From Methylobacillus sp. MM3 (GTDB lineage Bacteria > Pseudomonadota > Gammaproteobacteria > Burkholderiales > Methylophilaceae), in contig NZ_LXTQ01000001.1 in assembly GCF_001645185.1 (NCBI RefSeq), positions 186,001-250,000 on the forward strand: a stretch of 64,000 bases of DNA, written 5' to 3'. Made by a program: the position numbers and the translations under genes. Every line of letters starts with the position of its first letter. The stretch's first letter is position 1. Positions 41,723-46,900 of this stretch are shown piece after piece. The notes below the pieces were generated by a model that was given only the letters and a program-made list of their open reading frames with translations, made no database searches and had not been told where the DNA came from.

Positions 41723-43954
<2,232 letters not shown>

Positions 43955-43970
43955 GCAGTAAGTCATGAAT

Positions 43971-43994
43971 CCCGCCGCGCATGGGCGCGGCGGG
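43971..43994 (+). other. Intercistronic hairpin between tmd and globin gene
   Basis: A perfect 10-bp stem CCCGCCGCGC / GCGCGGCGGG with a four-base loop and no T-run. It more likely stabilises the tmd message or tunes read-through than terminates it. Confidence 0.6.
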
Positions 43995-44016
43995 TTCAAG
44001 CAAGAGGAATTGAATA

Positions 44017-44445
44017 ATGACACCCCAACAGATTTCAGTCGTAAAGAAAACCTGGGCACTGGCCGAACCGCTGGGCGATACCGTTACCGTGCTGTTTTAC
44101 GGCCGCCTGTTCGAGCTGGACCCGTCGCTACGCAGCCTGTTCAGGAAAGACATGCAGGAGCAGGGGCGCAGCCTGCGCACCATGATAGGCATGGTCGTGG
44201 GTGGGCTTGACGACCCCGACAAGCTGGCCGGCGCGCTGGCGGCTTCCGGTCGCAGGCACGTGACATATCGCGTCGAAAACCGGCACTACGACACCGTGCG
44301 CGAAGCGCTGTTGTGGACGCTGAACCAGGCGCTGCGCGAGATTTACACCGCCGAGGTACGCGATGCATGGATCGCCACCTACAACATGATGGCGGACACC
44401 ATGAAAGCGGCTGCGGCCGAAGTGGCAACCCCTGAGGTTGCCTGA
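44017..44445 (+). CDS. Single-domain globin (flavohaemoglobin-type)
   Basis: A 142-residue globin. The B-helix Tyr is in LFYGRLFELDPSLRSLF and the proximal His in SGRRHVTYRV near residue 86. Sequence is closest to the haem domain of Hmp or Vitreoscilla-type haemoglobin, but no reductase domain follows. It lies 62 bp after tmd, past an intercistronic hairpin, and probably shares the tmd promoter. It could deliver O2, remove NO or guard the flavoproteins; the FNR-type protein at 36842 may reduce it. Confidence 0.85.
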   Translation: MTPQQISVVKKTWALAEPLGDTVTVLFYGRLFELDPSLRSLFRKDMQEQGRSLRTMIGMVVGGLDDPDKLAGALAASGRRHVTYRVENRHYDTVREALLWTLNQALREIYTAEVRDAWIATYNMMADTMKAAAAEVATPEVA

Positions 44446-44488
44446 AACGGGACTGACGCCATCCGGCGCAGATTGCCCCGAGAAAGAG

Positions 44489-44759
44489 TAGGGCGTGTTT
44501 ACATTAATTTCACGCCTGCGTTGCCTCAAGAAAGCGATGGATGCAAGGCGCGGAGCGCAGCGAATGGTTGTTCCATTCGCAAGGTTCGCAACGCCGCAGA
44601 CGCGCTTTCTTGAGGCAACCCTTCGGGACGGGGGCGATTTGGGCGCCCTCCTTTGTCACAAGCCGCTTGTTGTGAGCGGCATAACGGCGCGTCTTGTTTC
44701 GCGGATGGCATCCCAAATTGCCCCCGTCGCAGACGCGAAATTAATGTAAACATGCCCTA
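44489..44759. mobile_element. MITE (271 bp) with 23-bp terminal inverted repeats
   Basis: TAGGGCGTGTTTACATTAAT... (44489-44511) is inverted at 44737-44759 with one mismatch. The interior holds nested palindromic stretches (for example ...AATGG-TTGTT-CCATT...) and no transposase. GAG flanks both outer ends and TA sits inside both, so the target duplication is GAG or TA. Two short frames on opposite strands both start in the inverted repeats and are not considered genes. The element fills the 325-bp gap before the Fe-S gene and ends 11 bp before its start codon. Confidence 0.85.
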
Positions 44760-44770
44760 GAGGTGCAGCA

Positions 44771-46900
44771 ATGAGCGATCCAAGAGAAATTACCCGAATC
44801 CTGTTCGAAAACTTCCAGCCTCAGGCTATTTATCTGTTCTACGCCTTTGGCTATGCGGCGATCGCCGTGTTTCTCTATGGCGTCTATACCCAGATCCGCA
44901 AATACCGGCGCGGTCAGCCGGATCCGTCTTGGGGCGGCTTATGGTCGCGTTTCGTCGATATGGCGAAGACCATGCTCACTCACCGTACGCTGAAGCGCCG
45001 CGACCGTGCGGCAGGCAGCGCCCACGGCATGATCTTCTTCGGCTTCGTGCTGCTGTTCATCGGCACCTCGACCATCACGCTGGAATACGACATTCTCAAG
45101 CCGCTGACCGGGGTGACGTTCTGGTACGGCAATTTCTACCTGTGGTTCTCGCTGGTGCTGGACCTGGCCGGCCTGGGCGTCGTCGCCGGCCTCATCTACA
45201 TGATGTATCGCCGCAAGTGGCTGAAGCTGCCCAAGCTGGACTACACCCGGCCCGACCGCCAGCCCGGCGACCCGGATTTTGATCGCAGCGGCTATCGGCG
45301 CGAGGACTGGGCATTCCTGTGGTCCTTCATCCTGATCGGCATTACCGGCTTCATCCTGGAAGCCGCGCGCCTGGTCTGGCTGAGCGATCGCCCGACCGTC
45401 TGGGATTACCGCATGTGGTCGCCGGTCGGCGCCACGCTGGCCCATGCAATGCAGGGCCTCGGCCTGACTCCGGAAGGCGCAAGCGCGATGCGCGGTGCCC
45501 TGTGGTGGTTCCACGGCCTGCTGGCGCTGACGTTCATCGCATGCATCCCTTACACCAAGATCAAGCACATTTTCACGGCGTCGGCTTCGCTGATGTTCCG
45601 CGACCCGCTGGCCGGCCGTCGCTTGCCCAAGGTGCCGGAAGAGCAGGAAAGCGCTGGCTTCAAGCAGATCACCGATCTCACCTGGAAACAGTTGCTGCAT
45701 CTCGATGCCTGCACCAAGTGCGGCCGCTGCCACGAGGCTTGCCCGGCCAACGCTGTCGGTGCGCCGCTGTCGCCGCGCGACGTGATCCTGTCGTTGCGCG
45801 AGTTCGCCAACAAGGCACTGAACGCCAAGGAGCTGCCCGAAGCGGCCGAACTGGACATCCACGGCAAGGGCGTCGGCCAGGTGTTCATGGAAACACTGTG
45901 GTCCTGCCGCACCTGCCTGGCCTGCGTGGAAATCTGCCCGGTCGCGGTCGAGCATGTGCCCATCATCGTCCAGATGCGCCGCAAGCTCGTTGAAGACGGC
46001 GACATGGAACCCATCCTGCAGAAGACGTTGCAGAACATCCACAAAAGCGGCAATTCGTTCGGCGAATCCAAGCGCAAACGCGCCGCCTGGACCAAGGAGC
46101 TGCCGTTCGAGATCAAGGATGCACGCAAGGAGCCGGTCGACATGGTGTGGTTCGTGGGCGATTACGCGTCCTTCGATCCGCGCAACCAGAAGGTCAGTCA
46201 GGCGTTCGCCCGCATGCTGCACAACGCAGGCATGGATTTCGGCCTGCTGTTCGAAGGCGAGATGAATGCCGGCAACGATGTGCGCCGCGTCGGTGAAGAA
46301 GGCCTGTACGAACTGCTGGCTTCCTCCAATATCGGCACGCTGCAGTCTTGCGACTTCAAGACCATCGTGACGACCGACCCGCACTCGTACAACACGATCC
46401 GCAACGAGTATCCGGATTTCGGCGGCCAGTTCGAGATCCAGCACTACACCAGCGTGGTCAAGCAGATGATCGAGGACGGCCGGCTCAAGCTCAAGAAGAA
46501 GCTCGACTACCGCGTCACCTTCCACGACCCGTGCCATCTGGGCCGCTACAACAAGGGTTTCGATGCGCCGCGCGAAGTGCTGAAGATGCTGGGCTGTGAA
46601 CTGGTCGAAATGGGCCGCAACCGCGACAACTCCTTCTGCTGCGGTGCCGGTGGCGGCCGCATCTGGATTCCCGATCCGGTGGGCGTCGAAAAGCCGTCGC
46701 AGAACCGTATGAAGGAAGCAGGCGCCATTGAGGGTCTTCAGGTCTTCGTCGTGTCGTGTCCCAAGGACCTGACGATGTTCGAGGACGCGCTCAAGACCTC
46801 CGGTTTCGAAGGCAAGTTTGTCGTGCGCGAGCTGATCGAGCTGATCGATGAGTGCATCGAATATGAAGTCTGGGAAGAGGCCGGTTCTGAAGCTGCCTGA
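44771..46900 (+). CDS. Membrane Fe-S oxidoreductase (HdrD/DgcB/GlpC-like), probable ETF-quinone link
   Basis: A 709-residue protein. The N-terminal half has about six membrane helices of the nitrate-reductase-gamma type. Two 4Fe-4S motifs follow: CTKCGRCHEACPANAV near 315 and CRTCLACVEICPVAVEH near 378. Two CCG-type domains end the protein, with DPCHLGRYNKGF and NSFCCGAGGGR. Proteins of this build accept electrons from ETF or flavin dehydrogenases and pass them to quinone, as with DgcB in dimethylglycine use. Encoded with etfBA, it is the likely membrane outlet for TMADH and DMADH. A MITE lies immediately upstream. Confidence 0.85.
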   Translation: MSDPREITRILFENFQPQAIYLFYAFGYAAIAVFLYGVYTQIRKYRRGQPDPSWGGLWSRFVDMAKTMLTHRTLKRRDRAAGSAHGMIFFGFVLLFIGTSTITLEYDILKPLTGVTFWYGNFYLWFSLVLDLAGLGVVAGLIYMMYRRKWLKLPKLDYTRPDRQPGDPDFDRSGYRREDWAFLWSFILIGITGFILEAARLVWLSDRPTVWDYRMWSPVGATLAHAMQGLGLTPEGASAMRGALWWFHGLLALTFIACIPYTKIKHIFTASASLMFRDPLAGRRLPKVPEEQESAGFKQITDLTWKQLLHLDACTKCGRCHEACPANAVGAPLSPRDVILSLREFANKALNAKELPEAAELDIHGKGVGQVFMETLWSCRTCLACVEICPVAVEHVPIIVQMRRKLVEDGDMEPILQKTLQNIHKSGNSFGESKRKRAAWTKELPFEIKDARKEPVDMVWFVGDYASFDPRNQKVSQAFARMLHNAGMDFGLLFEGEMNAGNDVRRVGEEGLYELLASSNIGTLQSCDFKTIVTTDPHSYNTIRNEYPDFGGQFEIQHYTSVVKQMIEDGRLKLKKKLDYRVTFHDPCHLGRYNKGFDAPREVLKMLGCELVEMGRNRDNSFCCGAGGGRIWIPDPVGVEKPSQNRMKEAGAIEGLQVFVVSCPKDLTMFEDALKTSGFEGKFVVRELIELIDECIEYEVWEEAGSEAA

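Follow-up and report, generated by a model that had tools for sequence, protein, structure and literature searches.

We identified a family of short proteobacterial repeats with a favoured length of about 268 bp, a fixed geometry, covarying arms and a preference for YT^AR target sites, one copy of which separates a globin gene from an Fe-S oxidoreductase gene in Methylobacillus sp. MM3 (Table 1). Inverted ends of about 30 bp enclose two inverted arms of about 100 nt around a CCCnnnGGG spacer, an arrangement that would let either strand fold as a three-way junction. We regard it as probable that this is a widespread non-autonomous element, that a transposase acting in trans recognises mainly its ends and moves it into YTAR sites, and that its arms are kept by selection on the fold, since the folded single-stranded form may aid mobility or make an intergenic insertion tolerable.

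Anatomy and fold of the element

The first-pass annotation of the window (the whole 64,000-nucleotide stretch of DNA analysed) described a 271-bp element with 23-bp inverted ends and a single mismatch, and this description was confirmed. The ends (44489–44511 and 44737–44759) begin AGGGCGTGTT, and 0 of 100 shuffles of the window gave such ends; the inverted repeat can be followed over 32 bp with 91% complementarity (44489–44520 and 44728–44759), with more inverted repeats inside. The interior had been called palindromic. Inverted repeats are indeed present there, but they build two hairpin arms of about 100 nt flanking a 7-nt mini-hairpin. The predicted fold of the element as single-stranded DNA has an energy of −92 kcal/mol, whereas shuffles average −49.9 (z = −12.2; 0 of 200 shuffles equal to it), and the predicted energy of the RNA fold is −164.5 kcal/mol. 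R1, a covariance model of one arm built from 32 arms, matches arm 1 at 44520–44618 (E = 1.3e-17) and arm 2 at 44628–44728 on the minus strand (E = 3.6e-15), matches that arise by construction because both arms are among the model-building arms.

ORFs of 84 and 75 aa fall within the element and were taken as mechanical; the element presumably has no coding capacity. Together with the terminal inverted repeats and a length below 500 bp, this supports the insert as a MITE by anatomy. It lies between two co-directional genes and does not touch the putative GAGGTG ribosome-binding site of the Fe-S gene; the neighbouring reading frames also appear to be left intact. The distance of 11 bp between the end of the element (44759) and the Fe-S start codon (44771) agrees with the earlier description.

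Table 1 Features of the element and its neighbourhood (positions in the window).
Feature	Coordinates	Strand	Evidence and remarks
tmd-like FMN oxidoreductase gene	41750..43954	+	PF00724; counterpart directly before Fe-S gene in most relatives compared
Globin gene, upstream of element	44017..44445	+	PF00042, 1.7e-13
Whole element	44489..44759	.	Terminal inverted repeats, copies; target GTAG at this site; TA at either extremity reads as TA target duplication
Left terminal inverted repeat / terminal stem	44489..44520	+	91% complementary over 32 bp; folded stem from 44490
Hairpin arm 1, forward polarity	44520..44619	+	Fold; model R1; internal-loop motifs CAAGGCGC ... GCAACGCCGC
Spacer mini-hairpin (7 nt) between arms	44620..44626	.	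Fold
Hairpin arm 2, class of arm 1 inverted, sequence diverged	44627..44728	-	Fold; model R1
Right terminal inverted repeat / terminal stem	44728..44759	-	Inverted-repeat match
Putative ribosome-binding site GAGGTG of Fe-S gene, just outside element	44760..44765	+	By eye
Fe-S oxidoreductase gene, downstream of element	44771..46900	+	CCG and Fer4 domains

Copies and an empty site

The genome of Methylobacillus sp. MM3 contains 21 matches to the window element. Five are full copies covering at least 258 of the 271 bases (the window copy and four at 85–89% identity), 11 are partial and centred on the first arm, and in the remaining five an end matches the opposite end of a copy. Among 60 genomes (own included), 10 gave a match; both G018 and G049 have full copies, and G001, a member of the same genus, has a shorter copy. 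One own-genome copy (L004) lies between murA and hisG, assigned by the EPSP_synthase-family and HisG domains of Pfam; the murA reading frame now runs three codons into this copy and ends at a stop codon that the copy provides. The corresponding site is empty in G001 and in G006, where the flanks meet without an element and are two bases shorter than those of the filled site when joined. These full copies, the copies in the other three genomes and the empty murA–hisG site bear out the MITE reading of the first-pass annotation, which had named a lack of further copies and of an empty site as the evidence against it; the empty site belongs to another copy than the one in the window. The suggested count of copies was thereby obtained, but the parent IS that was to be found with it did not appear among the end pairs seen.

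Two further observations were made in the same genome. Between gyrA and an aminotransferase class-V gene stands a single 21-bp end repeat that overlaps the gyrA stop codon (L094:2610–2630). Three loci (L323, L324 and L325) carry a second element family with ends GAGCCTGTTTCAG or a close variant, and its arms are of the same class as those of the window element.

Family geometry and length

An exact scan of GTDB genomes for the end sequence AGGGCSTGTTMACACTAWTTT, which represents one end type only, returned at least 117 stretches. Among the matches listed, these belong mainly to Beta-, Gamma- and Zetaproteobacteria and Desulfovibrio; Hydrogenophaga aromaticivorans and Ramlibacter lithotrophicus are examples of the cultured isolates represented. 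End pairs no more than 418 bp apart number 67 among the matches listed; 43 of them span 265–271 bp, 19 exactly 268 bp. The set pooled over all loci comprises 97 elements, of which two lie within others; their terminal stem is present by construction because they were selected by T1-like ends.

Two long branches are formed in the folds of 71 of the 79 elements of 225–345 bp, typically with a terminal stem of 30–31 bp, arms of 99–102 nt and a 7-nt mini-hairpin. The strict geometry, defined as a terminal stem of about 30 bp, an arm of about 100 nt, a CCCnnnGGG spacer and a second inverted arm, was found in 60 of the 65 elements of 255–285 bp that were taken from the 97, against 3 of 325 controls in which the interior was dinucleotide-shuffled and the ends were kept. 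Related sequences make the family counts non-independent. The geometry is demonstrated for Beta-, Gamma- and Zetaproteobacteria only, because the single Desulfovibrio pair (L154, 228 bp) lacks such a fold. Seven of the 97 elements consist of the two ends only (43–61 bp), three of them with T..A junctions, and solo ends adjoin genes in several genomes; the arms are therefore not part of every copy.

The gene context of 72 copies was co-directional in 34, convergent in 23 and divergent in 9, with no ORF on one side in 6. This count carries little weight, as it used naive ORFs and placed the window copy wrongly as convergent though it lies between two plus-strand genes.

Covariation and strand polarity of the arms

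Arm 2, in reverse complement, aligns with arm 1. A set of 124 arms of 96–103 nt was thinned to 33, and removal of an outlier from L165 left 32 diverse arms. In their majority sequence a tip hairpin is preceded by GCAAGGCGC (5' side) and followed by GCAACGCCGC (3' side), with two variants of the motif, and the sequence of the outer stem is free. Pairing holds in 85.0% of cells, compared with 52.5% in shuffles (0 of 500 reach 85.0%) and 38–43% in slid structures; the excess over the slid versions is partly by construction, as this alignment also served to derive the structure. The covariation score was 0.794 against 0.217 in shuffles, a value again reached by 0 of 500. Changes on both sides occur in 28 of 29 pairs, a count that 21 of 500 shuffles also reach.

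In the outer stems of 50 non-redundant arms, kept from 125 and scored with no energy model, G-T mismatches outnumber A-C mismatches 53 to 19 in the outside-in polarity. Taken per arm, 26 have more G-T and 7 more A-C (sign test p = 0.0013), and on the consensus arm structure the ratio is 74 to 32. A strand bias of transcription or replication should cancel between the two arms of an element, as these are on opposite strands; selection on the folded single-stranded form would be the simplest inference from this excess.

Tolerance of G-T would fit RNA pairing as well, and the elements are intergenic, often a few bases from the end of an ORF (naive ORFs). It is nevertheless highly improbable that their main role is post-transcriptional, as a transcribed insulating or RNA-processing hairpin between genes that spreads by rare mobility. 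Stable as the predicted RNA fold of the window copy is, Rfam gave no match for window positions 43900–44900 (E ≤ 1) or for seven loci with other copies (gathering score), a crude scan of the locus gave no Rho-independent terminator-like site, and each strand has one arm of each polarity and therefore no obvious RNA strand is indicated.

Target sites

The consensus flanks over the 97 elements read YT/AGGG...CCCT/AR (slashes mark the junctions). T occupies −1 in 82 and A occupies +1 in 79, with a pyrimidine at −2 in 91 and a purine at +2 in 92; T..A flanks together with intact A and T ends were found in 63 of 97. These statistics cover T1-like ends, and the junctions of other end types were judged by eye only. 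Insertion would thus occur mainly at YT^AR, where the TA reads as a 2-bp duplication; cutting without duplication inside YT^AR leaves an identical sequence and is hence indistinguishable from it.

The junctions fit a 2-nt TA and not the 4-nt YTAR duplication of IS5-family MITEs. The parent IS is commonly absent from a genome that bears its MITE, which would accommodate an ordinary MITE of an IS5-family IS lost from the genome, with the arms as a passive remnant. There is also a precedent in MITEPsy1 of Pseudomonas syringae, a 100-nt MITE linked to ISPsy2 of the IS5 family that targets CTAG or YTAA with a 4-nt duplication (PMC3189936, in the part consulted). The window element is like MITEPsy1, as that part of the source describes it, in having a comparable target, inverted ends and no coding capacity, and the T6 ends described below loosely resemble the MITEPsy1 ends by eye (PMC3189936). 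Unlike MITEPsy1, the present family has a 2-nt TA (YTA/GGG..CCC/TAR), a length of about 268 bp and two arms (PMC3189936, same part). The arm geometry and covariation would not be expected of a passive remnant, and no PF01609 protein was found in the own genome, though a lost IS5 parent would leave no gene there. We consider an IS5-family origin of this kind quite unlikely.

Distribution, end types and replicons

At E ≤ 1e-3, R1 recognised 35 arms in the own genome, while G011 yielded 65 and G237, a single-contig genome, 57; all 12 genomes tried, mostly chosen for having elements, gave matches. At E ≤ 1e-8, 40 of 150 Pseudomonadota genomes (own included), representing 27 of 88 genera, had a match and 110 had none. 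Copy numbers in the 150-genome scan are lower bounds, because its filters were stricter and no more than 27 candidates were scored in any genome.

End types were read in 35 of 40 stretches, and in 11 of these 35 they are uncertain, the stem finder having given a short or low-scoring stem (<10 bp or score <12). At least six types of end repeat (T1–T6) surround one arm class, with further types elsewhere. T1, T2, T4 and T5 start with AGRG(C/T)(C/G)TGTT, a start from which T3 (AGGGCTCGTT) and T6 (AAGGAACCTC) depart. Type T6 occurs in both full and ends-only sizes within one genome.

By blastn, the window element matched neither plasmids nor phage records nor E. coli, and an origin of this copy from a plasmid or phage was rejected; the L206 element likewise had no plasmid match. 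The L397 element, of another end type, matches four plasmid records (two Azotobacter, one Pseudomonas and one Halomonas), and the family is therefore not confined to chromosomes. Both arms were recognised in all three of these records that were examined. There is no annotated feature under the matches, in gene tables that are incomplete (the Halomonas record has a single feature). A scan of viral contigs gave one exact match to a T1 end, at 170–190 of the stretch L275 (IMGVR_UViG_3300039239_000039).

Search for a mobilising enzyme

Three transposase domain families, PF01609, PF13358 and PF01797, were each searched in part of the genome set. PF01609, a DDE domain, is absent from the own genome; of 10 genomes that carry elements or ends, 4 have it. 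PF13358 (DDE_3) is also absent from the own genome and was found in 2 of 15 genomes with elements, arms or ends, once over the cut-off. PF01797 (Y1) occurs in 7 of 12 arm-bearing genomes, including two matches in the own genome, and no arms were found at E ≤ 0.1 in 22 loci of 3–4 kb around Y1 matches. Enzymes of the IS4/IS5, IS630 and Y1 types thus showed no link to the elements in the genomes searched.

None of the end pairs examined, long pairs included, encloses a transposase. Five longer pairs (1018–3982 bp) either combine an end with the distal end of a different element or depend on a weak match (16 of 21). The ORFs between elements or distant ends were rejected as candidates, being ApbE (L237), an acyltransferase (L136), a molybdopterin oxidoreductase (L165) and a MutY-type glycosylase (L388); the ORFs between the ends at L230 are presumably CoA-transferase- and LysR-like, and one ORF beside the single arms at L389 encodes an ABC transporter. 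At L388, in G237, two complete elements stand on either side of the short region with the glycosylase gene, and recombination between them could delete or move it.

Two points speak against a transposase that reads mainly the ends: none was found, and the end types seem to differ more than one enzyme should tolerate. Mobility might instead be driven by structure, with the hairpin arms and not the end sequence recognised, for example in single-stranded DNA during replication, and the ends free to vary if they stay paired. This would suit the wrapping of one arm class by at least six end-repeat types, the excess of G-T over A-C in one polarity, the internal-loop motifs common to distant genomes, and an own genome without PF01609 and PF13358. 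Y1 transposases are the known single-strand enzymes, but Y1 is missing from 5 of the 12 arm-bearing genomes and no arms lie near its matches. Moreover, four of the six end types have a similar start, and ends-only elements of 43–61 bp exist, 3 of 7 with T..A junctions, which argues that the arms are dispensable for a copy. On balance we find structure-driven mobility unlikely, though worth keeping in mind. Similarly tentative is the broader proposal of a pan-proteobacterial class of transposase-less elements recognised by their folded shape, in which a three-way junction core with several end types would be served by a structure-specific enzyme acting at YT^AR. Recognition of the ends in trans, with selection on the fold, is the reading we prefer.

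The tmd/Fe-S junction

Twelve relatives had a match to the Fe-S protein, and the 10 close ones were compared, two distant ones (36–38% identity) being excluded. In 9 of the 10, the Fe-S gene has the same orientation as tmd and starts 85–215 bp past the motif ATCGAGTACAA(A/G)G, which lies near the tmd end; the gap is too short for the globin gene, and neither globin nor element is present there. In the tenth, the same-genus G001 (L052), a 137-aa Rnk/GreA-type ORF on the opposite strand stands between the two genes, and the Fe-S gene starts about 947 bp past a tmd motif. No arms were found at the junction in the stretches examined for all 10. The proposed comparison with an uninterrupted relative therefore gave a partial answer: nine relatives lack the element at the junction, but they also lack globin and G001 has another gene, hence no clean empty site for the window copy exists among them. 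More than one rearrangement has affected the junction, and the insertions of globin and of the element are not separable from the relatives compared.

The first-pass annotation took it as necessary that the promoter originally present had been displaced or replaced by the element. This does not follow, because the Fe-S gene of the relatives sits right behind tmd, and promoter replacement was rejected as unsupported. A crude consensus scan of 43850–44850, restricted to the sigma-70 type for promoters, gave no sigma-70-like site on either strand and no Rho-independent terminator-like site. Since the Fe-S gene follows tmd closely in 9 of 10 relatives, these comparisons make it look ancestral for the gene to be served either by tmd read-through or by a promoter near its start. 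If tmd read-through crosses the element, a very stable RNA hairpin structure would form just before the Fe-S ribosome-binding site. The LRV-repeat ORF, as listed, overlaps the last 53 bp of the Fe-S gene (46848–46900), and its true start may be further in.

Relation to known elements

Bacterial MITEs are described as shorter than 500 bp, with inverted ends of about 4–30 bp, mostly intergenic positions and stable stem-loops, in the consulted part of a review (PMC10969869). The window element is like them in its size, inverted ends, location between genes and stable fold (PMC10969869). Its three-way geometry and length of about 268 bp, and the occurrence of several end types on one arm class across several proteobacterial classes, lie outside the description in that part of PMC10969869. 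Chunjie, a 235-bp MITE of Geobacter, is known here through the same part of the review only (PMC10969869). REP and REPIN elements, associated with RAYT (Y1) transposases, are imperfect palindromes in many intergenic copies that are often paired, and the present elements share these traits as far as the relevant part of PMC3733652 describes them. Unlike REP/REPIN, they have arms of about 100 nt rather than 20–40, flanked by long inverted ends (PMC3733652, same part).

The Y1 results given above also set the family apart from the REPIN/RAYT system. MITEs of the IS630/Tc1-mariner type duplicate TA at CTAG-like targets, and the TA duplication in a CTAG-like target seen here is compatible with that type without being diagnostic of it; unlike what that type would lead one to expect, PF13358 exceeds the cut-off in 1 of 15 genomes and is missing from the own genome.

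We found no description of the element in the literature searched (subscription papers and ISfinder were outside its scope), and no paper containing the end sequences as text. The three-way geometry is absent from the descriptions of MITEs, REPs and IS5-linked MITEs in the consulted parts of PMC10969869, PMC2718517, PMC3189936 and PMC3733652. The element is best described as a MITE by anatomy that appears new in geometry against the descriptions found, with its IS family unassigned because the 4-nt duplication of the IS5 type is not seen.

For the window, these results correct the promoter-replacement account, and the covariance model can be used for annotating such repeats. If the geometry is functional, the family would be a common intergenic element of proteobacteria (40 of 150 genomes) maintained through its folded shape and not its sequence, and would offer a concrete starting point in the search for its mobilising enzyme and in tests of whether bacterial MITEs can be selected for structure.
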